Part shown: in pieces, positions 10,632 through 35,257 of the stretch | Layout: every line of letters starts with the position of its first letter | Position numbering within the stretch: the first letter of the stretch is position 1 | Translations under genes and position numbers: made by a program | Notes under the pieces: generated by a model | Seen by the model: the letters and a program-made list of their open reading frames with translations, nothing else | Database searches by the model: none | What the model was told of the DNA's origin: nothing | Origin: Ignavibacteria bacterium RIFOXYC2_FULL_35_21 | GTDB taxonomy: Bacteria > Bacteroidota > Ignavibacteria > Kapaibacteriales > UBA2268 | Length of the DNA stretch: 35,390 bases | Assembly: GCA_001804705.1 (NCBI GenBank) | Contig: MHAY01000059.1 | Span: forward strand, 1-35,390 | Direction of reading: 5' to 3'

Positions 10632-10639
10632 ATTAAATT

Positions 10640-11209: not shown

Positions 11210-11216
11210 TTTTTAA

Positions 11217-11239
11217 GTGTCAGGAGTAACTCCCGACAC
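11217..11239. terminator. hairpin between convergent genes
   Basis: GTGTCAGGAG and CTCCCGACAC pair over ten positions with one mismatch around TAA. It lies in the 38-bp gap between two convergent genes. Neither strand has a good T-run after it, so termination is inferred mainly from position. Confidence 0.5.
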
Positions 11240-11247
11240 CGTTTACA

Positions 11248-16738: not shown

Positions 16739-16969
16739 AATAATTACTAATTAATAATGACCAATTATTGAAATAAATAAAATCTAAATTGCAGGGACAG
16801 AATATTTTCTGCACATTTACAAGAAGTTGATAATGTAGAATGAAAAATGCAAAATGTAAGGGTAAATTATTTCTGCCCAAAAATATATTGAAATAGTTTT
16901 TATAAAATAAATACAATCTCATTAATCTTCCATTAATAAGGAAGAATTCATAGTTAGAATGGAGTAACG

Positions 16970-19804
16970 ATGAGTTTAAAAAGAATTTTGAAGGAAAGTA
17001 AGTTCAATAAAAGAAATTCGCTAATAATTGTAACATCAATAATTTTTGTCTTAACATTATATTTATCCCTGCCATTGACAAGCCAGGAGCAGAATCCGGC
17101 AAATGATGACTGCCTCATGTGTCATAATGACAAGACATTAAAAGTTAAACGGGGTGGAAAAATGATTTCCGCTTTTATAGATGAGAAAACCTATTCAAAA
17201 ACAGTACATGCCAAAGTTCAATGTATCGGATGCCATTCGGATTTAGCTAATAAGGATTTGCCGCATGAGAAGCCAGAGAAAGCTCAATGCGGTTCCTGTC
17301 ACAAAGAAGAGCAAGGTTTATATAATGAATGTTTGCATGGAAAAGCTTATAACAAAGGAGACCACTTAGCTCCCACATGCAATACATGCCATGGTAAACA
17401 TGATATTGTTTCAATCAAAGACAGAAAGTCGCCGGTTTATCCGATGAATGTTCCTAAGCTTTGTGGCAGGTGCCATCGCGAAGGTTCACCTGTTCAGTTG
17501 CAAAGGAATATTCCTGAAAGCCACATATTGGAAAATTATACCGAGTCCATACATGGTGAGGGTTTAATCAAAAAAGGATTGGTAGTCAGTGCAACTTGTG
17601 CCTCCTGCCATTCACCTCACAGGATATTACCACATACTGATCCAAGGTCAACAATAAACCGAAAGAATATTGCTGCTACGTGTACGAAATGCCATGCTGC
17701 AATCGAATATGTACATAAGAAGGTAATCAATGGCAGACTTTGGGAACAAGAAGCGAGAGTTCTACCTGCATGCATAGATTGTCATCAGCCTCATAAGGTA
17801 AGGAAGGTGTTTTATCCCCAGAATCTAGCGGATGAGGGTTGTAAAAAATGCCACGATGAGCGTTCATTAAAAAACGATAAGGGACATTCTATGTTTGTTG
17901 ATGTTCAGGAAATTGGTGAATCCAAACATAATAAAATCGCATGTGCCCAATGTCATGTTGAAGTGAACCCCAATCATTCACGGCCATGTGATGCTATCAC
18001 ACAAAATGTTGACTGTTCATCCTGCCATACGCAGGTCGGCGATGATTATATGAAGAGTTATCATGGACAATTGAATGTAAGAAATAATAAAGATGCTCCA
18101 AACTGCCGTGACTGTCATGGCACTCATAAAGTTTTAGGTAAAAGAGACGAGAAATCACCGATTTTCCCATTGAATATTCCAACATTGTGTTCGAGGTGCC
18201 ATCAGGAAGGAAAGTCAGCAACAAGGTTTTATAAAGGTACAGAACATAAAGTAATTGACCACTATGCTGAAAGCATTCATGGTCAGGGTTTAATTAAAAG
18301 CGGTTTAGTTGTTACTGCGACTTGTACAGACTGTCACACAGCCCATAAAGGATTGCCTTATAAAAATCCTGAGTCGAGCATACATCCCAACAACATTGCA
18401 AAAACATGCGGGACCTGCCATTATGGTGTTCAGGAAGAGTTTAATAAGAGCATACACTCGCCATTCGTATCGAGTGTTGATAAGAAGAAGTTACCTGTTT
18501 GTAATGATTGCCATACAGCTCACACAATCAAGAGGACAGACAAGAATCAATTCAGAATGGAAATTTTAAACACATGTGGAAAATGCCATAAGAAAATATC
18601 TGAAACGTATTTTGATACTTATCATGGCAAAGTTTCAAGATTAGGTTCTACGAAGGCAGCAAAATGCAGTGATTGTCACGGCTCGCACAGCATCTTACCC
18701 GTATCCAATTATAAATCTTCCCTGCACAGGGATAACATAGTTACTACTTGTCAGAAGTGCCATCAGAACGCAAATAAGGGATTCACTAAGTATTTCACCC
18801 ATGCGACTCATCATGACCCAACTAAGTATCCATGGCTGTTCTGGACTTTCTGGGGAATGACATTATTATTACTTGGTACATTTTCACTTTCGTTCCTCCA
18901 TACCCTGATTTGGCTGCCAAGGTCATTCCAGATGAGAAGAGAAATGAAAAAATTTATGCTCGCTCATCCTCATGATGAAACAACGAAACGGTATTCAAGA
19001 TTTTCTCCTCTTGAACGGGCATTGCATGTTACAATGATTGTGAGTTTTCTTAGCCTTGCAGTTACGGGATTAACAGTAAAATTTTCTTATACCGGCTTAG
19101 CAAAGGTTATTGCTTTTATTTTCGGGGGGGTAGAAAATGCAGGAACAGTTCACAGGTTTGCGGCTACAATCCTTTTTGGAATATTTATAATTCATGTGAT
19201 TGATTTATTCAAAAAGAAAAAGAATGAGTTCAAATCATGGAAAGATATGTTGTTTGGACCCTTTACTATGATACCAACAAAAAAGGATTTCAAAGATGTG
19301 ATTGCCTCATTTAAGTGGTATTTGGGCAAAGGCCCACGTCCTCAATATGGACGATGGACATATTGGGAGAAATTCGACTATTTTGCAGTATTTTGGGGAA
19401 TATTTATAATAGGTTCGACCGGTTTGTTCTTATGGTTTCCGGAAATATTTTCTTATGTATTTCCGGGCTGGCTTTTGAATGTAGCAACAATAGTACACAG
19501 TGACGAAGCATTGCTTGCGGCTGGATTTATTTTCACAGTGCATTTCTTTAACACACATTTCAGGCCCGAAAAATTCCCGATGGATACAGTTATATTTTCA
19601 GGACAGATAACAGTTGATGAATTGAAAATGGAAAGGCCTGATGAATATCAGAGAATGAAAATGAGTGGTGAGATTGAAAAAAGACTCTCGACACCATTTT
19701 CACCGAACATACTCAGACTCCTGAAAACATTTGGCTGGGTAGCATTAACCCTTGGTCTGTGTGTTGTTTTATGGATAATCTATTCTATGATATTTGCTTA
19801 TTGA
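16970..19804 (+). CDS. 19-haem cytochrome c fused to C-terminal cytochrome b
   Basis: A 944-residue fusion. A signal anchor (about 17-38) precedes a periplasmic domain with 19 CxxCH motifs, from CLMCH (residue 48) to CQKCH (594). The haem region contains an internal duplication, about residues 134-280 and 375-522. It is recognisable from KSP-x-(Y/F)-P and L-C-x-R-C-H-x-E-G, then (Y/A)ESIHG-x-GLIK-x-GLVV and NIA-x-TC. After residue 620 come membrane helices with conserved histidines (His686, His728, His742, His858) typical of a dihaem cytochrome b. The layout recalls CbcL of Geobacter, a c/b fusion used in Fe(III) respiration, but with more haems. GGAG at 16961-16964 supports the start. A strong terminator follows the gene. 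Confidence 0.92.
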   Translation: MSLKRILKESKFNKRNSLIIVTSIIFVLTLYLSLPLTSQEQNPANDDCLMCHNDKTLKVKRGGKMISAFIDEKTYSKTVHAKVQCIGCHSDLANKDLPHEKPEKAQCGSCHKEEQGLYNECLHGKAYNKGDHLAPTCNTCHGKHDIVSIKDRKSPVYPMNVPKLCGRCHREGSPVQLQRNIPESHILENYTESIHGEGLIKKGLVVSATCASCHSPHRILPHTDPRSTINRKNIAATCTKCHAAIEYVHKKVINGRLWEQEARVLPACIDCHQPHKVRKVFYPQNLADEGCKKCHDERSLKNDKGHSMFVDVQEIGESKHNKIACAQCHVEVNPNHSRPCDAITQNVDCSSCHTQVGDDYMKSYHGQLNVRNNKDAPNCRDCHGTHKVLGKRDEKSPIFPLNIPTLCSRCHQEGKSATRFYKGTEHKVIDHYAESIHGQGLIKSGLVVTATCTDCHTAHKGLPYKNPESSIHPNNIAKTCGTCHYGVQEEFNKSIHSPFVSSVDKKKLPVCNDCHTAHTIKRTDKNQFRMEILNTCGKCHKKISETYFDTYHGKVSRLGSTKAAKCSDCHGSHSILPVSNYKSSLHRDNIVTTCQKCHQNANKGFTKYFTHATHHDPTKYPWLFWTFWGMTLLLLGTFSLSFLHTLIWLPRSFQMRREMKKFMLAHPHDETTKRYSRFSPLERALHVTMIVSFLSLAVTGLTVKFSYTGLAKVIAFIFGGVENAGTVHRFAATILFGIFIIHVIDLFKKKKNEFKSWKDMLFGPFTMIPTKKDFKDVIASFKWYLGKGPRPQYGRWTYWEKFDYFAVFWGIFIIGSTGLFLWFPEIFSYVFPGWLLNVATIVHSDEALLAAGFIFTVHFFNTHFRPEKFPMDTVIFSGQITVDELKMERPDEYQRMKMSGEIEKRLSTPFSPNILRLLKTFGWVALTLGLCVVLWIIYSMIFAY

Positions 19805-21234: not shown

Positions 21235-24192
21235 TTAATCCTTCCCTAAAACCACAAAACCACCCCAAAATCTTGGATGACTGTACTTAGGGTCCTTTTT
21301 CATTTTCTTTTGAGCTACTTTCAGAGATGTTTGTGCATTTCCGGTTTTCAGCCAATGAACATAAAATAAGGTCATCAATTTCTGTGTTGCTTCATCATCT
21401 ACTTCCCAAAGACTCATTACAATATTTTTTACACCTGCAACTAGGAATGCCCTTTGCAATCCGAAAACACCTTCGCCATTCATTACATCTCCTAAACCGG
21501 TTTCACAGGCAGAAAGAACAACTAAATCAGTATTATTGAGATTCATATTCATAATTTCATAAGCAGTCAATAAACCATCATCCGTAAATTGGAGTAAGTC
21601 GGGATTTGAGTTATTTTCAAATGATTTTATTATATCATTAGCTCCAGCCATAACCAAACCTGAGCGAAGCAAAGGGTTATTCAGAATTGAATAATCATCT
21701 TCTTTTGCATTCAAATCTTCATCAAAATATCCGTGTGTTGCAATATGCAATACCTTTGGACTTTCTATTTCTTTAATTGTATGTTCAACAGATGAATCTT
21801 TTATAAAAGTTTTCACTTGCCATCCATTAGAAGTAAATTTATTCTCAATTGATTTTACTTCGTTTTCTGTTGCAGGTAATGGATTCCAAAGGTATCCATC
21901 TTTTGTGCGTTTAAGAGAAACACAACTTTTATCATCTTTTTTTTCATTATTTAATACTAATTGATTTTGGCCATCCATTCTAAAATTATAATTTGGATTA
22001 CCGAATAAAATTGCTGTTTTATTTTTCGAATTGTTTTGATTTACTGATTCAGCTAAATCTTTGGTTGATGAAAGAAGATAAATATCCGGTAAATTTTCTT
22101 TATTATTATTTGAATTAAGTGTATTTAGATTGATTTTATTATATATGCCATCAGCAGACAGATAAACTTGATTTATCCCAAAAAATTTTTCTTGAATTTT
22201 ACTCCAATACACATCTCTCAATTCATTTAAAATCCCTGGCTGTTTTTTCAAATATTTTTTATACTCAATGTAATTATTAATTATCGAATCCTGAGGATTC
22301 ATCGCATAAATATATTTTTTATATGAAGCAGATTCAAGTTCATTACCATTCTCAATTAATACATAATCAGGTGATTTCAACCCTTTTTTTATAATCAAAA
22401 CTGCATAGCTTACTGAATCGGTAAATCCCGGTTCCATCACATCCGGTTTGTATTTATTCGGAACTTTTCCAAAATGCCTGAATCTGATTATTTCAACTGC
22501 TGCCTCATTATCTTTAAGTGTGAATTGAATATCTTTCCATGATAAATTTTTACTTTGATTATATTGAAACATCAAAGGACAGCTCAATGATAATTCTCTT
22601 TCTGAATTATTTATACTTTGTTCTAATGTATCAGTATTAATTCTTGAATTGGGATTTTGTGAAGCATGATAAATTTTAGATAATAAATTTGTTTTACGCT
22701 CAAGTTCAATATATTTTCTTTTTGTTTCTTCATCATCTGTACTGCAAATAAAATCGTGAAGATTCTTTGATTTATATAGCAATAATCCTTTGAATGTCAA
22801 GTTATAATTGTATAATTCCTGTAATAATACAGGATTTGTTTTATATCGTATTGATAAAACATACCAGCTAAAGTAATCATAGTCTTTTTTCAAATCTTTA
22901 AGGAATGCAATTCTCTCACTGCTGCTAAGATTAGAAAAAGCATACTGAATCCTCATTAAATCATTTTTAATCACTTTCAGTAACAGGGAATCAGCTTCAT
23001 CAAATCTGTTGAGAGCAATGTAAGATTTTGCTAAATTGAAAGTATATCTGTAATAGAAATAGCTGTTTCTTCCATAAGCTTTTTTTATTAATTCAATTGC
23101 ATTAATGAATAAATTTACAGCTTCATTACAATTCCCAATAATATAACAGAGATTAGCATTGTTAAAATATATAGATGATAATATATAATTCAAATAAGCT
23201 TGATAGCCCTCTTTTACAAACGTAGTCGAATCCCCTTCCTTTGTCAATATTACTTGTTCCATAATCCGATAAGCATTTTGAAATTTATTTTTGGCTTTTT
23301 CATATTCACCTAATCCTGTATAAATTATTCCATATCTTCTTAAATGATTTGCATTTTCTGTATATATACCATAATTCATATTATGAGAAGCAGAGTCGTT
23401 AAATTTTAATGCTTCTTTATAATCCCCTATATCAATGTAAAGTTCAGTAAGAAAATTAAGAGGAGTATATGCTTCTGTTTTCGTTTCATTTTTCAAAAAT
23501 AATTTAAGAAATGCTTTTAAAACTTCAATAGCTTCATTGTAGCGATGATTATAATGATAATATTTACCAAGCCATCTATGTGACCATCCATAACCCCAGT
23601 TGTTTTCACCAAATTTATTTTTAATTAATTCAATGCTTAATTTTAAAACTCGTTCATCGAAAAATACACCATCCACTCTTTCTGCATCAGGTCCCAGCAT
23701 TGGAAGTAAATAAATTAATCTATCAGATATTCCACGAATAGTTGTTTTATTAGAATCTCTCAGTACAAATCCGCTTAATTTATCAAAACCAATTCTTATC
23801 AGTTTATCAACATCTGTATAATTATTTTTCTTTAACTGAATTGCAGCAATCTTAAAGATGCTGTTTGCATATTCTTTGCTGTTTGTAGAATAGATTTTGT
23901 TTTTTAATGAACTGTCAAGAGTTGCATATTGAAGTGCAGTATCATAATTATCGAGTTTTAAATTTATATCAGCTAATATTGCAATTGTTTTTGAATAATT
24001 TGAATCTAAAGTCCCAAATTCAATGTCAGCTTGTTCCAGTGCATTCTCAGCTATTGGAAGGGCAGTAAGATAATCTTCGTTTTGTATATAAGAACCGGCA
24101 CTGTCATATAACGCTTGCCATGTCTGGATGATTGCACCCAGATTTGATAGATTAAATACAAATACAATTGTAATAATAATTACAATTCGCAT
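21235..24192 (-). CDS. exported TPR-CHAT caspase-like protease
   Basis: A 985-residue protein. The first 20 residues (MRIVIIITIVFVFNLSNLG) form a signal peptide or anchor, so the protein should act in the periplasm or on a membrane. Residues about 25-450 are helical TPR-type repeats, for example GDYKEALKFNDSA and GEYEKAKNKFQNAYRI. The C-terminal CHAT domain (about 680-985) has both catalytic residues of the caspase-like clan: His820 in HIATHGYF and Cys896 in LSACETGLG. It ends with the family's HPRFWGGFVVLG. It is the third gene of an operon behind an ECF sigma factor and an anti-sigma candidate, 26 bases after the latter. GAGG precedes the ATG. Type III-E CRISPR Csx29 is a TPR-CHAT protease whose substrate Csx30 restrains a sigma factor, a relevant precedent. 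Confidence 0.92.
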   Translation of the reverse strand: MRIVIIITIVFVFNLSNLGAIIQTWQALYDSAGSYIQNEDYLTALPIAENALEQADIEFGTLDSNYSKTIAILADINLKLDNYDTALQYATLDSSLKNKIYSTNSKEYANSIFKIAAIQLKKNNYTDVDKLIRIGFDKLSGFVLRDSNKTTIRGISDRLIYLLPMLGPDAERVDGVFFDERVLKLSIELIKNKFGENNWGYGWSHRWLGKYYHYNHRYNEAIEVLKAFLKLFLKNETKTEAYTPLNFLTELYIDIGDYKEALKFNDSASHNMNYGIYTENANHLRRYGIIYTGLGEYEKAKNKFQNAYRIMEQVILTKEGDSTTFVKEGYQAYLNYILSSIYFNNANLCYIIGNCNEAVNLFINAIELIKKAYGRNSYFYYRYTFNLAKSYIALNRFDEADSLLLKVIKNDLMRIQYAFSNLSSSERIAFLKDLKKDYDYFSWYVLSIRYKTNPVLLQELYNYNLTFKGLLLYKSKNLHDFICSTDDEETKRKYIELERKTNLLSKIYHASQNPNSRINTDTLEQSINNSERELSLSCPLMFQYNQSKNLSWKDIQFTLKDNEAAVEIIRFRHFGKVPNKYKPDVMEPGFTDSVSYAVLIIKKGLKSPDYVLIENGNELESASYKKYIYAMNPQDSIINNYIEYKKYLKKQPGILNELRDVYWSKIQEKFFGINQVYLSADGIYNKINLNTLNSNNNKENLPDIYLLSSTKDLAESVNQNNSKNKTAILFGNPNYNFRMDGQNQLVLNNEKKDDKSCVSLKRTKDGYLWNPLPATENEVKSIENKFTSNGWQVKTFIKDSSVEHTIKEIESPKVLHIATHGYFDEDLNAKEDDYSILNNPLLRSGLVMAGANDIIKSFENNSNPDLLQFTDDGLLTAYEIMNMNLNNTDLVVLSACETGLGDVMNGEGVFGLQRAFLVAGVKNIVMSLWEVDDEATQKLMTLFYVHWLKTGNAQTSLKVAQKKMKKDPKYSHPRFWGGFVVLGKD

Positions 24193-24218
24193 TATTACCT
24201 CAATAATTATTTAAATGA

Positions 24219-25022
24219 CTAATTACTAAGTTTAATTATCTGAAATATTTCAGAATTTATATTCTTATAAATTTTCTCTAAGTTTTTCTTTTTGATAATA
24301 GCAACTTCTTTTGTTTTCTTCTGTATTTTTACATCAACATTTGTTGTGTTAGGATTGTATTGAAATACTAATCTTTGTTGTGTATTTGTATTTTTTGTAT
24401 TATGTACCCATTCACTTATTAAAAGAGAATCGTTTAATAGTTTTGTAATCTCAATTCCATTTTCTTGTAAAACTCCTACGATAACTGAAAATGCTGCTTT
24501 TCTTTTCTTATCAATCGTTGAATTATCCTGCGTCGAACCTCTATCAAAATATACAAGAGGGATTGATTCAAGTTTCGTTGATTGAATATGATTCTCATTG
24601 TCAAGAGTAGCTAAATCATGTTTGTTAATATCATTTGATTTGATTTGTTTTTGATTTCCATGATACGTTACTCTTTGTTTTTCTGTAATAATAATATCCT
24701 TTTTATTCTGTGTACCTGTATAAATCATTACCAAAAAAACTGATACGGCAATTATTAATAAAAGAGGTAAACCAAATTGTGGAGATAATACTTGAAATCT
24801 ACCAATTCTAAAATTATCATAAACATTTCGGGATAATTCTTTTGCTTGAATCCACGACATCGAAAAGATATTCTGCTTTGCACTTTTCTGATGTGTAGTT
24901 TTCAAAATAATATTTGAAATCATTTCCTTTTCATCATCATTTGACAATTCACGCTCAGGGACAGATTTCAAATGACTTTTCAGAAAAGAGTCCAAATTTT
25001 CATTGTTTATATTTCCAGGCAT
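24219..25022 (-). CDS. single-pass membrane anti-sigma factor candidate
   Basis: A 267-residue protein with a predicted single membrane helix at about 84-102 (FGLPLLLIIAVSVFLVMI). The N-terminal 83 residues would be cytoplasmic and helical, as expected of a sigma-binding domain, although the zinc-finger HxxxCxxC motif is absent. The C-terminal 160 residues would be periplasmic and have no family I recognise. The gene starts 14 bases after the sigma factor stop, and AAAGG precedes its ATG. Position and topology, rather than sequence similarity, support the anti-sigma role. The long outer segment is a candidate substrate or sensor for the downstream exported CHAT protease (inference). Confidence 0.65.
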   Translation of the reverse strand: MPGNINNENLDSFLKSHLKSVPERELSNDDEKEMISNIILKTTHQKSAKQNIFSMSWIQAKELSRNVYDNFRIGRFQVLSPQFGLPLLLIIAVSVFLVMIYTGTQNKKDIIITEKQRVTYHGNQKQIKSNDINKHDLATLDNENHIQSTKLESIPLVYFDRGSTQDNSTIDKKRKAAFSVIVGVLQENGIEITKLLNDSLLISEWVHNTKNTNTQQRLVFQYNPNTTNVDVKIQKKTKEVAIIKKKNLEKIYKNINSEIFQIIKLSN

Positions 25023-25036
25023 AATATTTACCTTTA

Positions 25037-25609
25037 TTAATTTGTTACATAATGTTTCAAATATTTTGAAAGTTTCTGCCTTCCTCTGTCAAGCCAGGTT
25101 TTCACCGTACCTTCAGGGATTGATAATTTCACTGCAATCTCACCTACACTCAAATCAGAGTAATAATACAAAAGAATGACATTTTGATAATCTACATCTA
25201 ACCTGCTAATAGCATATCTTATTGAATCACTCTTTTCATTTCTTACATGCATTAGCTCCGGATTATCATTATGGCTTTGACTGTTATCTTCATCACAATC
25301 CAAATCATACTTCCTATCTAACGATTTTTCTTTCCGCTTCCATTGCAATGCCTCATTCTTTGCAATAGTGAAAATCAAATTGTTTACGTTCCCTTTTGCA
25401 GGGTCAAATTTATTACCTGAGTTTATCAATTTTATCCAAGAATTCTGCATAATATCCTTTGCATCATCATAATCATTAACGATTTTATTAATAACCTTGA
25501 ACATCCAGGGTTTTACAAGTCTGAACAACTCTTCAAAGCTTTGTCTGTTCCCGTTATCTCTGAAATCAATAAATAATTGATTTTCAATATTTCTTTTTTC
25601 TATATCCAT
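25037..25609 (-). CDS. ECF (sigma-70 family group 4) sigma factor
   Basis: A 190-residue sigma factor. Region 2 spans about 23-93 (QSFEELFRLVKPWMFKVINK, then YDDAKDIMQNSWIKL). Region 4 spans about 128-184, with the helix-turn-helix LSVGEIAVKLSIPEGTVKTW and the basic end LDRGRQKLSKYL. The linker is acidic. It begins the operon that continues with the anti-sigma candidate and the TPR-CHAT protease. There is no Shine-Dalgarno sequence before the ATG, and a candidate -35 element lies only 20-28 bases upstream, so the transcript may be leaderless or nearly so. It probably controls its own operon and the divergent giant secreted protein (inference). Confidence 0.93.
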   Translation of the reverse strand: MDIEKRNIENQLFIDFRDNGNRQSFEELFRLVKPWMFKVINKIVNDYDDAKDIMQNSWIKLINSGNKFDPAKGNVNNLIFTIAKNEALQWKRKEKSLDRKYDLDCDEDNSQSHNDNPELMHVRNEKSDSIRYAISRLDVDYQNVILLYYYSDLSVGEIAVKLSIPEGTVKTWLDRGRQKLSKYLKHYVTN

Positions 25610-25628
25610 TTATTCAAAAACATGCCAC

Positions 25629-25637
25629 CCGGTTTCA
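25629..25637 (-). promoter_or_regulatory. TGAAACCGG, candidate ECF -35 element facing the sigma operon
   Basis: On the minus strand this reads TGAAACCGG and points at the sigma factor gene. TGAAAC-type -35 elements are common for ECF sigma factors. The start codon is only 20 bases after it, which would place the transcription start at or near the ATG. An exact copy on the other strand at 25726-25734 faces the giant gene. Confidence 0.45.
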
Positions 25638-25725
25638 AATATTTATCGGATAATTATTTAAAAAATAAACTAAGATGTTAAGATTATTAAACTTATGAAA
25701 ATTTTAGTTAAAAAAGAAAAAAAAA

Positions 25726-25734
25726 TGAAACCGG
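25726..25734 (+). promoter_or_regulatory. TGAAACCGG, candidate ECF -35 element facing the giant T9SS cargo gene
   Basis: The plus-strand copy of the 9-mer lies 62-70 bases before the ATG at 25796. An AT-rich -10-like stretch (ATATATAG, about 25750-25757) follows at plausible spacing. Two identical, oppositely oriented copies in a 186-bp divergent region suggest a shared regulator, either the ECF sigma itself or a dimeric repressor bound to an inverted repeat. Confidence 0.5.
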
Positions 25735-25795
25735 AAGGTGAGGGAAAGGATATATAGAGAAGGATAAAAGTAAATTAAAATTAAGGAGTTTTTTT

Positions 25796-28700
25796 ATGAA
25801 AATCAAAATACTATTAATAATACTTTTTCTGTTAACATTTACTACAAATTTAATATGTGGTTTAACAGATGGACTTGTTGCTTACCTTCCTTTCAATGGC
25901 AATGCTAATGATGAGAGTGGTAATGGTAATAATGCAATAAATTATGGTGCAACACTCATTCCTGACAGGTTTGGCAATCCTGATAAAGCATATCGGTTTT
26001 ATGGTGCTCATATGGAAGTACCAAATTCAGCTAGTATCTGCCCACAGAATTATTTAACAATTTCAATTTGGCTGAAACAAGATGATTATCAGGATTTTGA
26101 TTCGCCTTCGGCAATATCAAAAAGATATATCGAATTTAGTATTTGGAATTCGTATAATATAACCGGATATGCAAGAAATTCTACAGAAAAGGCTATTAGT
26201 TATCAACAATCAAATTCTACACAGCAGTATGGAATAGGAACAGTAATTAAAACTAATCAATGGACTCATATAGTAGCTATTTATGATGGTAGTTCAATCA
26301 AATTATATAATAATGGTATATTGAAAGATTCATTACCTTTCACTGGAAGTATAGCATATAACAATAATCCATTATTAATAGCAAAAACATCTCCATTTTA
26401 TCCTGGTGGTTACTGGCGAGGTTCAATTGATGAAATTCGTATTTATAATCGGGCAATAACGGAGTCAGAAATTCAGGAGCTATATCACGACGGTGAAGTA
26501 ACTATCGGAACTCAAACCTGGATGAAAAGAAATCTTGATGTGGCTTATTATCGAAATGGCGACCCAATACCACAGGTAACTGACCCTACTCAATGGGCAA
26601 ACCTTACGACTGGGGCATGGTGCTACTACAATAATGACCCTGCTTTGGGAGCAATATATGGCAAATTATACAATTGGTATGCAGTACACGACCCACGTGG
26701 TTTATCACCTGCTGGTTGGCATGTACCATTAGATAACGAATGGAAAACATTAGAAATGTATTTGGGTATGTCTCAAGCACAAGCAGATATTATAGGATGG
26801 CGAGGAACAAATGAAGGTGGAAAACTTAAAGAAACTGGGACTTCACACTGGAGTAGTCCCAACCTAGGTGCAACTAATGAAACTGGCTTTACGGCATTAG
26901 GTAGTGGCTGTCGAAATGAAGTATCAACATTCTACACTTTCGGAGACCTTGGTTACTGGTGGACTTCATCAGAAAACGGTACATCTTATGCTTGGTCAAG
27001 ATATCTTGCTTCTGGGAACGAAAAAATCCTTAGAACATATCATCTTAAGAATGCCGGATTTCCAGTTCGTTGTGTTAAGGATTCACCATTAAATAATGGT
27101 TTAGTCGCTTATTATCCTTTCAATGGAAATGCTAATGATGAGAGCGGGAATGGAAATCATGGTACCAATTATGGTGCTACAATAACTTCTGATAGATTTG
27201 GAAATACGAATAAAGCATATTATTTTGATGGTAATGCCGAAATTACTGTTCCTCATTCTACATATTTTAATATTGAAACTTGGTCTATATCTGTCTGGTA
27301 TCAAACAACAGCCAGTGATTTGCACCCGTATAGGATAACATCAAAATCAGGGTATTTCCCACAATCCAATTACCTTGCTATTCTCTTTGATCCGGCAAGT
27401 GTTTATGGTTCAGCTTGGAATGGTTCAACAGAGATACAAACAAGAGATAACCAAGCAACAAATGATGGGGATTGGCACCATGTTGTATATATTAGAGATA
27501 ATTCAAGTCATAAATATTATTTATATGTTGATAATATTTTAAAAGAAACTGATGATGATATTTTTGGTAATTTATCTAATACATCAATTTTATATATTGG
27601 AAGTATTTACGGACCTGCAAATCAAAAATGGGTAGGTGAAATAGATGATATAAGAATTTATAACCGTGCATTAACAGAGTCAGAAATTCAGCTTTTGTAT
27701 AATGAAGAAGGTGTACAGACAAGTGTTTCACTACTTACTCCAAACGGAGGAGAACCCTGGCAGGCAAATCTTTTCTATGATATAACATGGGAACAGACAA
27801 ATGTTTCTCAAGTAAATTTGTATTACAGAGAATCAAACACAAGTTCATGGAAGGAAATTGCAAATAATATTGATGCAAGCTTAGGAACTTATAAATGGGA
27901 ACTGCCAAACATCAATACAACAACAGCATCAGTAAAGATCTGTGATGCAGGCAATGAAAGCATTCAGGATATAAGTGATAATGTATTTAAAATCGAAAAG
28001 AAAGCTTATATCAAATTAAAAATAGTTACAAAAGGTAATTCCAATCCTAAACAAGTTGAATTGTTCGTTCCAAACAATCCAAAATTAAGTAATATTAATT
28101 CAAACATAAGTGATGGCTTTGCTGTGTTTGATTATGAAAAAATAAAAGACTTTTTTGATGAAGACGAACATCCTTTATTAGATTTCTACAATCATAATAT
28201 TAAAGAATTATACTTATTGGATGAAAATGATAATTATGTTGGAAAATTATACTTCCACTACCCCGAAAAAGATTATTTAGCAAATAGAGGGAAAGAAGCT
28301 ATAATTATATTACATGATGAAATAGTAAATTATTTATTCCATCCATTGGAGCAAATTAACTTTAAATGGGTGTTTCCTCACAAGTTTCATGGTGATAAGG
28401 AATTTATTAATACCTTGTATCAAACCTCAATGCTCATTCCACCTATGAATGAAAATCATGAATATTTAATATCAAACTCAAGAGCTGATAAAAAACCTGT
28501 TTTATTTGTGCATGGAATAAATGGGAAAGACCATTATTGGGGTGATGATTGGAGTGATAAACAAAAAGGAATAGTTGATCCTAACACTGATAATCTGAAT
28601 AATGATTTTAACTCTGTTATTGATTACAGATATACTTCCTATCCCGCAAGATTTCAATTTTCTTCATTTGAGAATGAAAATAATTTTAATAAATATGATG

Positions 28701-31700
28701 TTTGGGAATACTATTATCCGCCTGACCAATCCTGGATTGAGTCCGGTTATTTGTTAGGACAAGATAATAAACTAATAACTGAAAAATACAACTCACAAAA
28801 AGTTTCAGTTGTCGCTCATAGCATGGGAGGATTAGTTGCAAGAGCTTATATTGAAGGGAAAAGTGAATATTATTTAGGTCTTAACGAACCTCCAAATATT
28901 GGTGTATTTAACAATGATATTGACAAAGTTTTGTTTTTAGCTACCCCACACAATGGTTCTTTTGGAGCAACAAGAGCTTATTATGATATTAATTTTGGCT
29001 CTTTCTTTGCTGATTTCTTTACTGATATAGATCCATATTCTCCTGCTATCCGGGAGCTATCAGTTGGAAGTAATTCATATCTTAAACTTAATTATATTTC
29101 TACTTTTAATTATAATGGAGTAATTTATTATCAAGTATCAGGAGGAACTAAATTTGGATTATTTAAAGATCCTAAAGTAGTTGATATAAACTTACATATA
29201 AATTGTGAACCACCTATTCATGAAAGTGAGAATCATGAAGATGGAGCTGTTTCATTATCATCAAGTAGTCTATTATCATTTGGTATTCCTTTGAGTATCA
29301 AATCAAGTTTTTCACATACACATTTGAATTCACCTGACAATAGATGTTCAGATTTATCAAAATCAGAAAAAGAAATTGTTCCTATGGCAATATCTGATTA
29401 TTTTAAAAATGGAACATTAACAAGCACGAGAGATAAATTTAATGTTAATTTAAATAATACACCAGTCCAAGCTTCAAAGGACAATGTCCAACTTGATATA
29501 GGATTACCAATTGTTGGATTTTGGAATAGAAATAAATCAGAGTATTGGATACCTCCAGAACCAAATAGTAATAGAGTGCGGTTTATTGCTAATAGTTACA
29601 ATACTTCTGACAATGTTTTGAAATTAATAAAACAAAATTTTAGTAATTCAAACTTCTATAACAATAAAGGTTGTTATTTGTATTATTCTAATAACATTTT
29701 TTCAGGGGATTTTTACAAAAATTATTATATTAAAAGAGGAAATCCATATTTGTTTTACGGTTACGAAAAATATAATCAAGATTATAATGAAGGTAAAAAT
29801 ATTTTTAACGTGAAAGCAAATTCACAAGGTGTAGGTTGGCAGTTTAAACCGAATGAATTAAGTATGGATGTTGACTTACATATAACTTTTACAAATTGGG
29901 GATGGGGAGAATTTGAAGGGGAGGATTTCGAGAATCAGGCACTACTTGTTGGAAAAATACGAGACACAAAACTTAATTGTAAATGGACTACGTCAACTTA
30001 TTCTGATTTAATTATTACTGAAGATGAAGCTGCATTATTAAATTGTAATACCGTTGATGAATATAATAAACAAAAAAAACAGACAGTCAATAAAGGGTCT
30101 AAAGATGTAGTTCTCGAAGATAAAGGTCTTGTCTTTGATTTCGATTGTAATACAGATTATTCTGTATTTTATTTGAGGTATCAAGATTCTCTTTTACCAA
30201 ATTTGTCGGTTATAGCGCCCAATAAAGACACGTTGAATATTATGGTTTCCGATACTACAAAGTTTTTATCTCATGTTGATACCGAATCAAAATTTATGTA
30301 TATGGTGGTTGATAACCAACCAGGACAATGGAAAGTCTTAATAAACGGAAAAAATTATCTGCCTGATTCTACTTATGAATTATTTTTACCGGTTTACAAT
30401 TCAACAGTATTAAACTTAGCTTCAGAAACTGATACTTCGAACAAAGTAATCCTACAGGCATTCCTTTCAGATTCAGCAAAGAAGTTATTACCTTCAGAAA
30501 TAAATTCAATATATTATGATGAGGATAATATAGAACAGAGCCTGACTTTCAAAGATGATGGGATAGTACCGGATTCTATTGATGGAGATGGAATCTATTC
30601 AACATTTTTTGAAACCACAACTAAGTTAAGAGATACCATCTATGTTTCTTACACAGCCCATGACGAAGAATGTGATTTCACAAGAAATGAATCAATTGTA
30701 ATTACTAATTATAACATTGCTCTTGTAGAACAGAGTAAATCTCAAATGGTTTGTCACGGTGAAAATGTTATTCTTTTTGTGAATGTAGATGGTTTATCGG
30801 TTGAATACGGATTACCAATTGAGTTCCGATGGCAAAAGGACGGAGTTGACATTCCTAATTCAAACAGTTCTGAATTAGTATTTGATAATATCAATTATGA
30901 CAACTCAGGTATTTATAAATGTATTATAACAAATTCACCTTATAATGATACGATTGTTTCAAGTGATATATTAGTATATGTAAACTCCGAAGCCTCTTTC
31001 CTAAGTGAGCCGAAATCCAAATATGTTAAAATAGGTTCAACTGTTTCATTTGATTTTGACGCACATGTGAATCCGATAGCATATAACAATCCAAATGCTA
31101 TCAAGTGGTATAAAGGTAGTGAGATGTTGAAAGACAGTGGTAGAATATGGGGGACATCAACGAATTATTTAACTATAAAAAATGTACAGCATGAGGACAT
31201 ACGAAATGATTATCATGTAGAATTGTACGACCCATGCAAAATAGCTAACGATACTAATTCTAATTATCTCGTTTCAAATTCATTTGGAATTTATACAAGT
31301 GATATGATTCTTGAACAACCTCAAAATCAAAATATTTGTGATAATAGCTCTGCAACATTTACAATTTCATTACCGCAACCACAAAGTGGTCAGACTTATT
31401 ATTATCAATGGTTCAGAAACAAAGCAAAATTAAATATTGAAAGTAACATTATTGGAGCAAATGATTCAATTCTGATAATTAGTAATTCTACAATTTCAGA
31501 CACTGGGAAATATTATGTAGAGGTTACAGTTCAACCAGAAGATATAATCATACAATCAGATGTAGCTTATCTACAATTTATTACTCCTCCATCAATAATA
31601 GACTTTGAATCTGACAGTAGTTTATTTCTAAAAGACACGAGAATGAATATTGAATGTAATGTTAGTGGCACTGAACCTTTCATTTACAGATGGTTTAAGG

Positions 31701-32392
31701 ATGGGACCTTATTAACAAATCAGACTCAGAAATCATTGAATATTGATTCTGCAAAAATAAATGATGAAGGGAATTATTATTGTATCGTTGAAAATGACTG
31801 TGGTATTGACACTTCAAAAATTATCCATGTTATCATTGCTTATCCTGCAATAATTACAGTTCAGCCTGTTGCAAATGTTGCTTTTCGAGAAGGGAATGAA
31901 TTTCGACTGTCAGTTGAGGCAATTGGAACAAAGCCATTAAATTATCAATGGTACAAAGATTCAGAATACTTACCTGGCTTTACTGATAGCTTATTATTTA
32001 AACCTAATATATTTATTGAGGATGAAGGCAGTTATAATTGTGTTGTAACAAATCTTTATGGTTCGGATACATCAGAGACATCGGAAGTCTCAGTAATAAC
32101 ATCAACAACAGATGGTATGGTTTATAATTTTAAATTATCCGATAATTTTCCAAATCCATTCGATAACTCAACAATAATAAAATTTGAAATACCTCAAGCA
32201 GATAGAGTTGTACTTACTATAAAGGATGTTCTTGGAATTACAATTGTTGAATTAGTAAATAAGCAATTAGATGCAGGTCAACATGAATTTACATTTAAAC
32301 CTGCGGATAATGGCTTGGGCAGTGGTGTTTACTACTATTCATTATCAACATCAAAATATTTGGAAACAAAAAAGATGGTGATAGTGAAATAA
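25796..32392 (+). CDS. giant modular T9SS cargo with lipase-like alpha/beta hydrolase core
   Basis: A 2198-residue secreted protein. Order of parts: signal peptide (1-22); LamG-like domain 1 (about 25-230); FISUMP domain (about 232-430); LamG-like domain 2 (about 432-640, a clear duplicate of the first); a beta-sandwich segment (about 644-735). An alpha/beta hydrolase follows (about 900-1180) with VLFVHGING at His906 and nucleophile Ser1009 in AHSMGG, the Ala-x-Ser-x-Gly variant known from Bacillus lipase A. His near 1174-1176 is a triad candidate. About five immunoglobulin-like domains (1640-2105) and a T9SS type A sorting domain (about 2113-2198) close the protein. It is probably a surface esterase or lipase with carbohydrate- or surface-binding modules. 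AAGGAG precedes the ATG. It is divergent from the sigma/CHAT operon. Confidence 0.9.
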   Translation: MKIKILLIILFLLTFTTNLICGLTDGLVAYLPFNGNANDESGNGNNAINYGATLIPDRFGNPDKAYRFYGAHMEVPNSASICPQNYLTISIWLKQDDYQDFDSPSAISKRYIEFSIWNSYNITGYARNSTEKAISYQQSNSTQQYGIGTVIKTNQWTHIVAIYDGSSIKLYNNGILKDSLPFTGSIAYNNNPLLIAKTSPFYPGGYWRGSIDEIRIYNRAITESEIQELYHDGEVTIGTQTWMKRNLDVAYYRNGDPIPQVTDPTQWANLTTGAWCYYNNDPALGAIYGKLYNWYAVHDPRGLSPAGWHVPLDNEWKTLEMYLGMSQAQADIIGWRGTNEGGKLKETGTSHWSSPNLGATNETGFTALGSGCRNEVSTFYTFGDLGYWWTSSENGTSYAWSRYLASGNEKILRTYHLKNAGFPVRCVKDSPLNNGLVAYYPFNGNANDESGNGNHGTNYGATITSDRFGNTNKAYYFDGNAEITVPHSTYFNIETWSISVWYQTTASDLHPYRITSKSGYFPQSNYLAILFDPASVYGSAWNGSTEIQTRDNQATNDGDWHHVVYIRDNSSHKYYLYVDNILKETDDDIFGNLSNTSILYIGSIYGPANQKWVGEIDDIRIYNRALTESEIQLLYNEEGVQTSVSLLTPNGGEPWQANLFYDITWEQTNVSQVNLYYRESNTSSWKEIANNIDASLGTYKWELPNINTTTASVKICDAGNESIQDISDNVFKIEKKAYIKLKIVTKGNSNPKQVELFVPNNPKLSNINSNISDGFAVFDYEKIKDFFDEDEHPLLDFYNHNIKELYLLDENDNYVGKLYFHYPEKDYLANRGKEAIIILHDEIVNYLFHPLEQINFKWVFPHKFHGDKEFINTLYQTSMLIPPMNENHEYLISNSRADKKPVLFVHGINGKDHYWGDDWSDKQKGIVDPNTDNLNNDFNSVIDYRYTSYPARFQFSSFENENNFNKYDVWEYYYPPDQSWIESGYLLGQDNKLITEKYNSQKVSVVAHSMGGLVARAYIEGKSEYYLGLNEPPNIGVFNNDIDKVLFLATPHNGSFGATRAYYDINFGSFFADFFTDIDPYSPAIRELSVGSNSYLKLNYISTFNYNGVIYYQVSGGTKFGLFKDPKVVDINLHINCEPPIHESENHEDGAVSLSSSSLLSFGIPLSIKSSFSHTHLNSPDNRCSDLSKSEKEIVPMAISDYFKNGTLTSTRDKFNVNLNNTPVQASKDNVQLDIGLPIVGFWNRNKSEYWIPPEPNSNRVRFIANSYNTSDNVLKLIKQNFSNSNFYNNKGCYLYYSNNIFSGDFYKNYYIKRGNPYLFYGYEKYNQDYNEGKNIFNVKANSQGVGWQFKPNELSMDVDLHITFTNWGWGEFEGEDFENQALLVGKIRDTKLNCKWTTSTYSDLIITEDEAALLNCNTVDEYNKQKKQTVNKGSKDVVLEDKGLVFDFDCNTDYSVFYLRYQDSLLPNLSVIAPNKDTLNIMVSDTTKFLSHVDTESKFMYMVVDNQPGQWKVLINGKNYLPDSTYELFLPVYNSTVLNLASETDTSNKVILQAFLSDSAKKLLPSEINSIYYDEDNIEQSLTFKDDGIVPDSIDGDGIYSTFFETTTKLRDTIYVSYTAHDEECDFTRNESIVITNYNIALVEQSKSQMVCHGENVILFVNVDGLSVEYGLPIEFRWQKDGVDIPNSNSSELVFDNINYDNSGIYKCIITNSPYNDTIVSSDILVYVNSEASFLSEPKSKYVKIGSTVSFDFDAHVNPIAYNNPNAIKWYKGSEMLKDSGRIWGTSTNYLTIKNVQHEDIRNDYHVELYDPCKIANDTNSNYLVSNSFGIYTSDMILEQPQNQNICDNSSATFTISLPQPQSGQTYYYQWFRNKAKLNIESNIIGANDSILIISNSTISDTGKYYVEVTVQPEDIIIQSDVAYLQFITPPSIIDFESDSSLFLKDTRMNIECNVSGTEPFIYRWFKDGTLLTNQTQKSLNIDSAKINDEGNYYCIVENDCGIDTSKIIHVIIAYPAIITVQPVANVAFREGNEFRLSVEAIGTKPLNYQWYKDSEYLPGFTDSLLFKPNIFIEDEGSYNCVVTNLYGSDTSETSEVSVITSTTDGMVYNFKLSDNFPNPFDNSTIIKFEIPQADRVVLTIKDVLGITIVELVNKQLDAGQHEFTFKPADNGLGSGVYYYSLSTSKYLETKKMVIVK

Positions 32393-32422: not shown

Positions 32423-32475
32423 AGTTGAATTATTGATTTATCATATTATCAATATTTCAACTCTTCTGTTTTTTT
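32423..32475. terminator. bidirectional hairpin between convergent genes
   Basis: AGTTGAATTATTGAT (32423-32437) and ATCAATATTTCAACT (32448-32462) form a 15-bp stem with one mismatch and a 10-base loop. On the plus strand CTTCTG and seven Ts follow. The right arm lies inside the last codons of the convergent lipoprotein gene, so that gene's coding end doubles as terminator. Confidence 0.75.
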
Positions 32476-35257
32476 GTCTGTTATCTTCTGAATCATTTGG
32501 TGCAACAGGTTTTGTTGGACCATATCCTTTGGCAATTACCTTTGACTTGCTGATACCTTTTGAGACGAGGTAATTTACGACAGACTTAGCACGGGCATCG
32601 GATAATTTCATATTAACTGCATCAGTGCCAATGTTGTCAGTATGACCTGATACTTCCAATTTGATATTAGGATTATCTTTCAGAATTTGAACAAGCCTGT
32701 TCAGTTCAGGAAATGGTTCCTTTCTTAGTTTTGATTTTCCAAAATCGAAAAATAAATTATTAATGCGAGCTTTTTGACCCTTTTCAATTGGCACAAGTTG
32801 TAAATCAGAGACAGATTTTTTATATACTTTTAAATTCATCAAATCAACATTATCGTTAACAGAGATAAAGTCAGGTGCTTCCGCTCTAAAACCATATTTT
32901 TTCCCGGCAGGTAAAATGATTTTATAAATGCCTGTTGAAGGATTAGTATGTGCTATTCCCAGTTCTTCCCCTGTAATTAAATCCTCATAATGAATTTCTG
33001 CCTCAACAGGTTCATTCGTCTTTGCATTAATGACTTTCCCTTCAATAAGAATTACAGGATTGGGTCTCTTATCCATTGGTAAACCGATTCTGTAAATATC
33101 TTGACCCCCGTATGAATCCTTTGATGAAGCAAAATAAGCAAAATCTCCACTTGCTGGTATTACATAAAAGCCTTCGTCACCATAAGAATTAATTGTTGGA
33201 CCTAGATTTTCCGGTGTTGACCACTTTTTCCATGATTTATCTAATCTTCTTGTTAGAAATAAATCTGAACCACCAAAACCGCTATGTCCCTTACTGCTGA
33301 AGTAAAGTGTAACATTATCTGATGCTAAAAATGGACTTGATTCTTCATCCCATGTATTTATAGTTGTTCCAAGATTTCTTGGCTCAGACCATGAATCATC
33401 CTTATTTTTAAAACTAATATATATATCATTTCCTCCGTAGCTATCATACCTTTTTGCTGAAATAATAATTACTTTTCCATCATTTGACATTGTGGAGTTG
33501 TGGTAAGTACTGAGTGATATAAAATTTTTCATATCAATATCATTCGGGTAACTCCATCCTTCACTTAATCTATATGAAATCGAGTTTCCATTGCCTGTAT
33601 ACAAATCGTTATAAAGGTTATGCAATATCATTAAATTACCGTCAGGACTAATTGATGAAACTGCATTATGACCTTCATTATTTAAAGGAGAACCTATATT
33701 TTGTGCTTCACCCCAATCACCATTTGCATCTAATTCAGAATAGTAAATATCTTCGCCACCAAATCCACCGGGGTTGTCCCTTCTAACAAAATACAAAGTT
33801 TCGCCATCAGGGGCTATAACCGGGGCATATTCACTATATAATGAATTTACTTTGTTACCCAAATTTTCAGGTGCTTTTGTAATTTCCTCATTATATTTCA
33901 TTCTTATATCTATAGCAGCATCGGTTTCTCCAAATGTATTTAAAAATCGTCTTTGACTTTCAATATCTGTACAATATTGTTTCGCTTTTTCTCCTGCTTC
34001 ATTAATGTATTCAGGATATAATTCTGCTGCTTCAATCCAATCGTTTAAATCCTCACTTTCATTTATATATTTTAGCTTGAGTTTTTTTATTGAATTTGAT
34101 AAGGCAAATGTGTTTACTACTCGTGGGAGGTCATACCTCTTAATATTTGGTAGTGCCTTTTCAATTGCCTCGTCTGCTCTTGATGAATTTGGAAATAGTA
34201 TTGAATAGCTCAGTAAATCTTGGGTTGTATTTATATAATAAATTGCTTTATTTTCTAATGAAGCAATGTCATTAGGATTAGGAAACATATCGAAATAAGA
34301 TTCAACGTCTTTATAACTACTAATGTACGATAAGGAATTTTTTTGAATGTTATTTTTATATTCACTTTCAGGAAAAAGATTAATGAATTCTTTTGCTTCT
34401 GACAGATTATTTACATTATACAATTTATTTTCGATTTGTTTTTTTAACTCATCGTCAAAAGGTACTTTTAAAAACAGTTTTTTTGCGTCATATATGTCTT
34501 TAGTGAACATTATAGCTTTATAATTATATTCTTTCTGGAGTGATGGATAAAGCTCAACAGCTTTTAACCATTCATCAAGGTTTCCAGTTCGTTTGTAATA
34601 ATCTCTTATCACATCATTTCCAGCTTCTGAATATGGGAATAAGCCAACAATAACAGGAAGCTCAGAACTATTAAGATTAGAAATTGACCTTCTGATTACA
34701 TCTGAAGTATATTTGCTATTTGGAAAAAAAGTTTTGAATAAACTGGCATCATCGGCTGTATAAAAATTAAAATCCTCATCTGCATCATCTGGAATTGCTT
34801 TTATGTAAGAATTTACATAAGATTTTAAATAAGAATTTATCAGGATTAAATCATCGTCATATCTTTTTAACCAATTTTGAGCATCACTATCGAAAAAAAT
34901 CTCATGTTTATTGCCATCACTGCTAAATTCATAAATAAGAAAACCAGTTAATAATCCGGCTAATACAGACTGCCCTATTCTTATTTCATTTTTACTTAAA
35001 TTCCCAACCTTATAGTCATAAGGAGCATATTGATAAACTGCATATCCGACTCCTGCAGAAAAGCCTAAGTTTAATGTCCAGCCTAATATATTCAGTCTTT
35101 CGACACAATAAGGATTATTATAGGTAACAATCTGATTTTTTGCTTCATAAGGCTCACCTTTGTATTTGGGTCTTAAACTTGTGCAGTTTGTAAAGATTAA
35201 TCCACTTAATATAAAAATACAGATTATTCTCAAATTAAAATTGATTACCCTTTTCAT
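32441..35257 (-). CDS. PorE-like OmpA-family lipoprotein with PD40 propeller
   Basis: A 938-residue protein. The signal peptide ends FTNC, so Cys25 is probably lipidated. Residues about 45-115 are partly hydrophobic; about 120-470 are helical repeats. A PD40/WD40-like propeller spans about 475-720, with blades such as YAPVIAPDGETLYFV, FGGEDIYYSEL and YGGQDIYRIGL. A carboxypeptidase-regulatory-like domain lies at about 727-815. An OmpA-type peptidoglycan-binding domain closes the protein (about 830-938: EVSGHTDNIG, LSDARAKSVVNYL, NRRVEI). This is the architecture of PorE, the T9SS protein linking the secretion complex to peptidoglycan, but similar OmpA/PD40 proteins occur in many copies, so orthology is uncertain. 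AAGGAA precedes the ATG. Confidence 0.85.
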   Translation of the reverse strand: MKRVINFNLRIICIFILSGLIFTNCTSLRPKYKGEPYEAKNQIVTYNNPYCVERLNILGWTLNLGFSAGVGYAVYQYAPYDYKVGNLSKNEIRIGQSVLAGLLTGFLIYEFSSDGNKHEIFFDSDAQNWLKRYDDDLILINSYLKSYVNSYIKAIPDDADEDFNFYTADDASLFKTFFPNSKYTSDVIRRSISNLNSSELPVIVGLFPYSEAGNDVIRDYYKRTGNLDEWLKAVELYPSLQKEYNYKAIMFTKDIYDAKKLFLKVPFDDELKKQIENKLYNVNNLSEAKEFINLFPESEYKNNIQKNSLSYISSYKDVESYFDMFPNPNDIASLENKAIYYINTTQDLLSYSILFPNSSRADEAIEKALPNIKRYDLPRVVNTFALSNSIKKLKLKYINESEDLNDWIEAAELYPEYINEAGEKAKQYCTDIESQRRFLNTFGETDAAIDIRMKYNEEITKAPENLGNKVNSLYSEYAPVIAPDGETLYFVRRDNPGGFGGEDIYYSELDANGDWGEAQNIGSPLNNEGHNAVSSISPDGNLMILHNLYNDLYTGNGNSISYRLSEGWSYPNDIDMKNFISLSTYHNSTMSNDGKVIIISAKRYDSYGGNDIYISFKNKDDSWSEPRNLGTTINTWDEESSPFLASDNVTLYFSSKGHSGFGGSDLFLTRRLDKSWKKWSTPENLGPTINSYGDEGFYVIPASGDFAYFASSKDSYGGQDIYRIGLPMDKRPNPVILIEGKVINAKTNEPVEAEIHYEDLITGEELGIAHTNPSTGIYKIILPAGKKYGFRAEAPDFISVNDNVDLMNLKVYKKSVSDLQLVPIEKGQKARINNLFFDFGKSKLRKEPFPELNRLVQILKDNPNIKLEVSGHTDNIGTDAVNMKLSDARAKSVVNYLVSKGISKSKVIAKGYGPTKPVAPNDSEDNRQKNRRVEILII

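Follow-up and report, generated by a model that had tools for sequence, protein, structure and literature searches.

The stretch of DNA analysed here (the window; 35,390 nucleotides of Ignavibacteria bacterium RIFOXYC2_FULL_35_21) carries a minus-strand series of three genes encoding an extracytoplasmic function (ECF) sigma factor, a one-pass membrane protein proposed to be its anti-sigma factor, and an apparently exported protein that joins tetratricopeptide repeats (TPRs) to a CHAT domain. The three genes almost certainly form one functional set, the layout being more than chance because the arrangement recurs in other genomes. There is about an even chance that this set is an operon-encoded envelope-signalling switch, in which the exported CHAT protein relays a signal by acting on the anti-sigma factor.

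The window is contig C59, complete from end to end, of a 4.15-Mb genome in 105 contigs. The four open reading frames (ORFs) listed below lie where an earlier note on this DNA had placed them, and the tight series that it described is real, with gaps of 14 bases between the sigma and one-pass genes and 26 bases between the one-pass and CHAT genes; the giant gene is divergent from the series. Loci, genomes and contigs of the comparison carry L, G and C numbers.

25037..25609, minus strand: ECF sigma factor, 190 amino acids (aa), by Pfam and NCBIfam; relatives at 39-70% identity have the same neighbours
24219..25022, minus strand: one-pass membrane protein P0002, proposed anti-sigma factor, 267 aa; one hydrophobic segment, homologues at the same position
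24720..24776, minus strand: transmembrane segment of P0002, residues 83-101, by hydropathy
24540..24542, minus strand: codon of Arg161 of P0002, candidate CHAT cleavage position in the outer domain; invariant in 7/7 main-type CHAT-linked homologues
21235..24192, minus strand: TPR-CHAT protease-like protein P0001, predicted to be exported, 985 aa; PF12770, TPRs and export-like N-terminus
24133..24192, minus strand: signal-peptide-like N-terminus of P0001, first 20 residues, by hydropathy
21244..22230, minus strand: CHAT domain of P0001, by profile match
21733..21735, minus strand: codon of the predicted catalytic His820, in HIATHG; column invariant in 11 sigma-linked CHATs
21505..21507, minus strand: codon of the predicted catalytic Cys896, in LSACET; column invariant in 11 sigma-linked CHATs
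25796..32392, plus strand: giant secreted lipase-like protein with LamG, FISUMP and immunoglobulin domains (Pfam and NCBIfam), 2,198 aa; probable target gene

The product of 25037-25609 is an ECF sigma factor, with regions 2 and 4 in a short protein: Sigma70_r2 (45.5 bits) and r4_2 (53.2 bits) both exceed their Pfam cut-offs, and the NCBIfam sigma70-ECF model TIGR02937 scores 97 bits.

Recurrence of the gene order

The family sample came from a search for P0001 in 60 genomes, from which 46 stretches holding CHAT matches were taken, short or fragmentary matches being left out. Upstream of eight of the 51 distinct CHAT ORFs (52 rows, one a duplicate), in the same orientation, lie a sigma gene and a one-pass gene; the pair is directly upstream in the window, L010, L049, L052, L059 and L067, and three genes stand between it and the CHAT gene in L086 and L073. 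In L086 (G009:C194, 4772-13362) the genes between anti-sigma factor and CHAT encode an OmpA-type protein and two exported proteins with WD40 repeats (868 and 1,255 aa). Scanning named genomes with the sigma alignment gave 36 loci. Six of these, L113-L118, are 39-70% identical, and all have a sigma gene followed by a one-pass gene; they come from metagenome bins that bear the labels Bacteroidetes, Candidatus Kapaibacterium and Ignavibacteria. A CHAT gene comes next in four of the six. L118 breaks off inside its TPR-CHAT gene, ahead of the CHAT domain, and at L115, the G009 locus, three genes are inserted and CHAT lies beyond the stretch, where L086 displays it. The other 30 loci, with best-segment identities of 22-42%, measured in part over short segments, contained no CHAT in the stretch.

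The outside sample consisted of 60 CHAT loci from 58 genomes elsewhere in the phylum, hand-picked and mostly one per genus (L191 yielded no CHAT ORF and L192 two). At 17 of the 60 a sigma/one-pass pair has its one-pass gene adjoining the CHAT gene. Eight of these, in families f18, f19, f25, f28, f45 and f48, keep the exact sigma / one-pass / CHAT order, and nine are convergent, tail-to-tail pairs (L206, L210, L212, L213, L223, L229, L232, L233 and L237); at four further loci the sigma gene is divergent. Over 584 kb the outside loci contain 22 sigma ORFs, where the sigma density of the genome to which the window belongs would predict 2.7, a control that other genomes, which may hold more sigma genes, need not match. 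The sigma proteins of L225 and L230 are identical, while their CHAT and one-pass proteins differ. The expectation of the earlier note that relatives would keep the sigma / one-pass / TPR-CHAT order is thus borne out, at 8/51 family ORFs and 17/60 outside loci.

A tree of 46 CHAT domains needs four label changes to accommodate its eight sigma-linked rows, and none of 500 shuffles was as low; such changes do not tell gains from losses. The sigma-linked rows, which fall in three places on the tree, comprise a clade of the window, L067, L052 and L086, the pair L049 and L059 next to it with L051, and two separate rows, L010 and L066_10340 (= L073). L051 spans residues 661-982 of P0001 in genome G013 and complements the G013 piece in L118 (186-633).

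Weighing against a general tie are the 43 of 51 family CHAT ORFs without a same-strand upstream sigma gene (several run off contig ends, and two are fragments of one disrupted gene that lies divergent from the C92 sigma gene) and the 39 of 60 outside loci without a sigma gene within three genes. Most CHAT genes have no sigma neighbour, indicating that CHAT has other jobs too; CHAT proteins occur in 148 of 296 genomes sampled in the phylum. The sigma-less CHAT genes of L012, L013 and L015 have OmpA proteins as neighbours, the one at L012 carrying PD40 as well, and the CHAT of L013 is near a protein with a type IX secretion system (T9SS) tail just below the Pfam cut-off. A second CHAT gene beside the C92 operon (L010, G000:C92, 11321-14271) is broken into pieces of 716 and 246 aa with internal stops.

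The TPR-CHAT protein

P0001 is a member of the CHAT peptidase family (PF12770, 197 bits against a curated cut-off of 24, with TPRs also found by Pfam), its dyad is intact, and protease activity is predicted. His820 and Cys896 are both as the earlier note had them; the dyad is invariant in all 11 aligned sigma-linked CHAT domains and again in an alignment of seven sigma-linked CHATs from outside the family. The structure model of P0001 matches separase (2e-10), Csx29 (1e-8) and DdvA (2e-7), with the caution that its mean predicted local distance difference test (pLDDT) score of 70 is of modest confidence.

Export was judged by a hydropathy rule, without a trained predictor. By this rule P0001 looks exported, as the earlier note had read from its N-terminus, and so do 38 of 44 full-length CHAT ORFs at the family's loci. 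At these loci the rule also picks out 98 of the 194 other ORFs that reach 250 aa, but none of the 11 sigma ORFs; for the outside loci the figures are 49 of 59 CHATs against 48 of 148 other ORFs. A C-terminal transmembrane segment is present in 23 of the 59 outside CHATs, including six of the eight in an operon with sigma, and in 0 of 44 family CHATs; export signal and C-terminal anchor together would hold the CHAT domain at the inner membrane, on its periplasmic side. It is very probable that the CHAT protein of the window lies outside the inner membrane. As it looks exported, it would be on the same side of that membrane as the outer domain of P0002.

The one-pass protein as proposed anti-sigma factor

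From its position and its relatives we infer that P0002 would be the anti-sigma factor of the set. It has a single hydrophobic segment and its gene lies directly after the sigma gene, both as expected of an ECF anti-sigma factor, and a one-pass gene directly follows an ECF sigma gene in 11 loci of the family. AlphaFold 2 (AF2) predicts, with low confidence, three N-terminal helices (block pLDDT 46-73), and further a transmembrane helix, a disordered linker (103-143) and a folded C-terminal domain (147-266). At L073 the partner protein carries a zf-HC2 domain (25.6 bits against a cut-off of 22.2), so that at least one CHAT operon has a recognised anti-sigma type, although the sigma factor there falls below its Pfam cut-off (20.1 against 21.1). 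The partner at L247 has an HxxxCxxC-like stretch by eye. Since the L010 partner is weakly similar to that of L049 (BLAST 5e-4), only the L073 partner is clearly of another type. The N-terminus of P0002 resembles this genome's other anti-sigma candidates weakly, at an HHalign probability of 50% over 32 columns. A six-row model of the one-pass protein found matches in 7 of 54 family genomes, and an 11-row model in 13 of 391 class genomes, of which seven belong to the family and six, matched at 7e-5 to 9e-4, do not.

Against this assignment stand the absence of any Pfam or padloc family for P0002, with one sub-threshold NCBIfam line, and its equivocal positive-inside balance. A PDB sequence search with P0002 gave nothing useful. 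Foldseek returned weak BamC-domain matches for the outer domain (E 3e-4), and VIA-align gave Z scores of at most 8.7 to common alpha/beta folds; neither listed an anti-sigma fold, a result that excludes nothing.

A metalloprotease in the place of CHAT

A third sigma/one-pass pair of the same genome, on contig C32 (L149), is followed by an exported 624-aa M48 metalloprotease, without CHAT:

L149 (G000:C32) 9098-12353, sigma at 11781-12353: homologous operon of sigma factor, one-pass protein and exported M48

The C32 one-pass protein was found by the six-row model, built without it, at 6.4e-5 over the first 65 positions. The same sigma/one-pass/M48 set occurs in G001:C146 (L162), its M48 82% identical to that of C32; on C92 of the window's genome (L010) the order is sigma, one-pass, CHAT, M48; and in G022 (L161) an M48 gene lies two small genes from CHAT, with no sigma gene within the 16 kb seen. 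These four, all with HExxH and an ExxxAD-type third-ligand motif, and two weak matches (6e-4 and 9e-4) are the M48 relatives found. The Pfam scan, which covered the C92 and C32 proteins and not those of L161 and L162, gave PF01435 scores of 51.8 and 38.1 bits, respectively, against a cut-off of 20.3. The other 16 sigma genes of the genome have neither CHAT nor HExxH in up to five following same-strand genes.

Arg161 as a candidate cut site

Among the seven main-type CHAT-linked one-pass proteins only four of 331 alignment columns are invariant, namely M1, I38, R161 and L185. In an 11-row alignment the R161 position is Arg followed by Gly or Ser in eight rows (the seven and L150) and Tyr in both M48-linked proteins, and Arg stands there in 7 of the 8 aligned CHAT-linked proteins. 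AF2 places R161 in a loop of the outer domain between a strand (147-155) and a helix (167-187), with block confidence of 64-77. Proteases of clan CD can cut after Arg. A CHAT cut at Arg161 is proposed only tentatively, and the residue could also be structural. Three points tell against the cut: L010 is CHAT-linked and lacks the Arg by an alignment that is poor there, L150 has the Arg although its short contig shows no adjoining CHAT, and the alignment left out the zinc-type partner of L073 and the partners from outside the family.

Comparison with known systems

With a profile of the seven outside sigma-linked CHATs, the sole PDB sequence match was DdvA (8rot and 8rw5, E 2.4e-6), with His and Cys kept. 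These entries are titled transmembrane anti-sigma factor DdvA, their chain is named CHAT domain-containing protein, and we take DdvA to be a Myxococcus xanthus protein. As in the window, a transmembrane anti-sigma factor is tied to TPR-CHAT with the CHAT His and Cys retained. VIA-align of DdvA with the CHAT model gave Z 14.7 over 344 residues at a root-mean-square deviation of 19.4, so this is not a rigid match. In DdvA, however, anti-sigma factor, transmembrane segment and TPR-CHAT form one chain, whereas here they are separate ORFs, the CHAT protein has its own export signal, and M48 can replace CHAT. Among 112 CHAT ORF rows, some cut N-terminally, only L192_4 has a hydrophobic segment at 45-300. 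The window set is neither a DdvA-type fusion nor Csx29. In M. xanthus, DdvS controls an antiphage island (PMC12288465). No paper on the DdvA structure was found in the literature searched, whose scope took in few subscription papers.

The Csx30 inhibitor of the Csx29 system, which belongs to type III-E CRISPR, is soluble. Csx29 cuts Csx30, an inhibitor of CASP-sigma, in a flexible loop of the Csx30 C-terminal domain (PMC10028731). That system and, as proposed, the window set combine a TPR-CHAT protease with an inhibitor restraining an ECF sigma factor, but Csx29 is RNA-triggered and bound to Cas7-11 (PMC10028731), while the CHAT protein here is predicted to be exported and the proposed inhibitor to lie in the membrane. 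The earlier note had called the window's system CRISPR-independent, which fits: none of the padloc matches of 20 window proteins is to a Cas model, and the window lacks any CRISPR-like array, cas genes not having been sought in the rest of the genome.

Regulated intramembrane proteolysis of anti-sigma factors is known from RseA/DegS and RsiW/PrsW, which likewise involve an ECF sigma factor, a one-pass anti-sigma factor and an envelope protease. Unlike those systems, the site-1 protease here would be an operon-encoded, caspase-like CHAT; an M50 protease is present in the window's genome. RseA/DegS and RsiW are also named in PMC10028731.

For ECF54, PMC8999054 notes CHAT, subtilase or carboxypeptidase genes in the context of the sigma gene. 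ECF54 is proposed there, under a heading on a mainly actinobacterial mechanism, to work without an anti-sigma factor (PMC8999054); it thus resembles the window in having CHAT near an ECF sigma factor and differs in its proposed independence of an anti-sigma factor. In the literature searched, PMC10028731 was the sole paper in which the terms ECF (sigma) and CHAT domain occur together. Ties between CHAT and ECF sigma factors are already in print for Csx29/Csx30/CASP-sigma and ECF54. The CHAT/sigma gene set of the earlier note is real, conserved and encoded by separate genes, but less new than was claimed, given the single chain of DdvA and the CHAT neighbours of ECF54. By analogy, the window set may work like a split, envelope version of the DdvA and Csx29/Csx30 systems.

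Putative promoters and the giant secreted protein

TGAAAC is a -35 element of ECF sigma factors. Two elements of this type lie between the sigma gene and the giant gene:

25630..25637, minus strand: TGAAACCG, a conserved element upstream of the sigma gene, 28 bp from its start codon; TGAAAC in 7/10 sigma upstream regions
25726..25757, plus strand: TGAAACC-N17-ATATATAG, putative promoter of ECF type for the giant gene, whose start codon follows at 40 nt

In the window, L067, L052, L086, L149 and L162 the distance from TGAAACC to the sigma start codon is 27-33 bp, and the variants TGAAACT and CGAAACC occur in L059 (34 bp) and L049, respectively; no such element precedes the sigma gene in L118 (62 bp seen) or L010. 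A second copy faces the divergent gene, as TGAAACC-N17-ATATATAG in the window, L067 and L052 and as TGAAACC-N17-TATATA in L149. The exact TGAAACC-N17-ATATATAG has one match in the window, and 5 of 100 shuffles have at least one. On C32 the TGAAACC-N17-TATATA copies lie at 15356-15385, 15417-15446 and 19601-19630, the third preceding a protein with a T9SS tail of 55.4 bits. In the genome, the pattern TGAAACCN{13,19}ATATA has 19 matches, 14 inside ORFs and five within 50 nt before a start codon; four of these five are at the C59 and C32 sigma loci and one precedes a GTPase-like gene (by eye). Through these putative TGAAACC-N17-TATA promoters, secreted proteins encoded nearby, among them the giant, would be linked to two sigma loci. 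Counting against them, four of the six occurrences of the 8-mer TGAAACCG in the window are at other places, the reversed control of the genome pattern has 13 matches against the 19, and the sigma-ward TGAAACC leaves so little room before the annotated start that a -10 would run into the start codon. A large regulon is not supported, given the 14 of 19 matches inside ORFs and the 13 in the reversed control.

The giant protein has a DUF676 match (26.4 bits against a cut-off of 20.3; AHSMGG at 28814-28831), a T9SS type A tail (TIGR04183, 31.1 bits against 23 in NCBIfam and 37.1 in a second scan; PF18962 in Pfam, 24.6, is under its cut-off of 27) and a hydrophobic N-terminus (5-23). Judged by its sorting domain and predicted N-terminal export signal, it is a T9SS type A cargo. 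Its gene probably belongs to the sigma regulon, and the earlier note's choice of the giant hydrolase as a sigma target is plausible because the ECF-type promoter is shared with relatives. What does not hold is that note's expectation of a T9SS cargo conserved beside the module: L067 and L052, the two closest relatives, have at the divergent position a TPR/coiled-coil protein, 56% identical between them and with no real match to the giant. Since a different protein stands behind the same promoter there, the promoter seems to have been retained and the giant gene to have arrived downstream of it. T9SS tails are moreover very common in this genome (of 291 candidates 150 were scored and all 150 match, three in the window), so adjacency of a cargo means little, and a T9SS link based on adjacency was rejected on both counts, which leaves the promoter as the one argument retained.

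Other features of the window

Convergent with the giant gene, 32441-35257 encodes a 938-aa PD40/OmpA protein whose PorE-type T9SS resemblance is below the cut-off. Two proteins of 731 and 944 aa (14543-19804) join cytochrome b561-like and multiheme c-type cytochrome domains. A 99-aa protein (4625-4924), beside a 119-aa gene, matches the padloc candidate-defence models PDC-S09 (4e-27), and a 276-aa protein (9801-10631) aligns with a portion of padloc model mad2 (1.3e-19). At the contig end (1-572) are tandem repeats whose units measure about 56-74 and 113 bases.

Proposed mechanism and alternatives

We propose that the cytoplasmic N-terminus of the one-pass protein would hold the ECF sigma factor, and that the exported TPR-CHAT protein would meet its outer domain. 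On sensing a ligand through the TPR superhelix, the His820/Cys896 protease would make the first cut as a site-1 protease, most likely in the loop around Arg161. As with RseA and RsiW, an M50 site-2-type protease and cytoplasmic proteases may then finish the degradation, and the freed sigma factor would activate its own operon and the divergent secreted protein through the putative TGAAACC-N17-TATA promoters. Whether CHAT cuts the one-pass protein at all we regard as evenly balanced.

It is rather unlikely that CHAT and M48 are instead outputs of the sigma factor, acting as envelope proteases or surface-protein processors for secreted or T9SS proteins and leaving the anti-sigma factor untouched. 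Operon co-expression fits either role, and the many CHATs without sigma, those beside OmpA genes, and the WD40 and OmpA genes between anti-sigma factor and CHAT in L086 agree with such outputs. However, 9 of the 60 outside loci keep the pair tail to tail with CHAT, outside its operon, the single chain of DdvA points to a regulatory tie, and the conserved loop Arg is left unexplained.

Also unlikely is that CHAT cuts nothing, or only itself, and serves as a sensor which, by binding the anti-sigma factor at its outer domain, alters that factor's grip on sigma, as the CHAT inside DdvA may do. Binding in cis would be natural in DdvA, with anti-sigma factor and CHAT on one chain, and TPRs are binding modules; the invariance of His and Cys in the 11 aligned sigma-linked CHATs argues otherwise, as does the filling of the same place in related operons by another protease class, M48 with HExxH and the ExxxAD-type motif. 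That the one-pass protein is an envelope protein of some other role, as its lack of a family or useful PDB sequence match would allow, is very improbable in view of its place right after ECF sigma genes in 11 family loci, the zf-HC2 domain at that place in L073 and HxxxCxxC-like stretch in L247, its predicted three-helix N-terminus before the transmembrane helix, and the weak profile similarity.

Returning to the proposed cleavage of the anti-sigma factor, a wider reading, which we hold at somewhat below even, is that exported TPR-CHATs are a widespread, unrecognised class of site-1 protease for Bacteroidota ECF anti-sigma factors. They would cut the membrane-bound partner in an outer-domain loop (here after Arg161), M48 would fill the slot too, and DdvA and Csx29/Csx30/CASP-sigma would be relatives within one caspase-to-sigma scheme. 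To our knowledge, the substrates of most CHAT proteins in the phylum are not known. The recurrent gene pair names a concrete substrate (the adjoining anti-sigma factor), a position (Arg161) and a read-out (the TGAAACC-N17-TATA promoters), and so makes the role of exported CHAT proteins testable. If true, the sigma-releasing logic of a CRISPR-associated caspase would work outside CRISPR, in the envelope, with a slot that a metalloprotease can fill.

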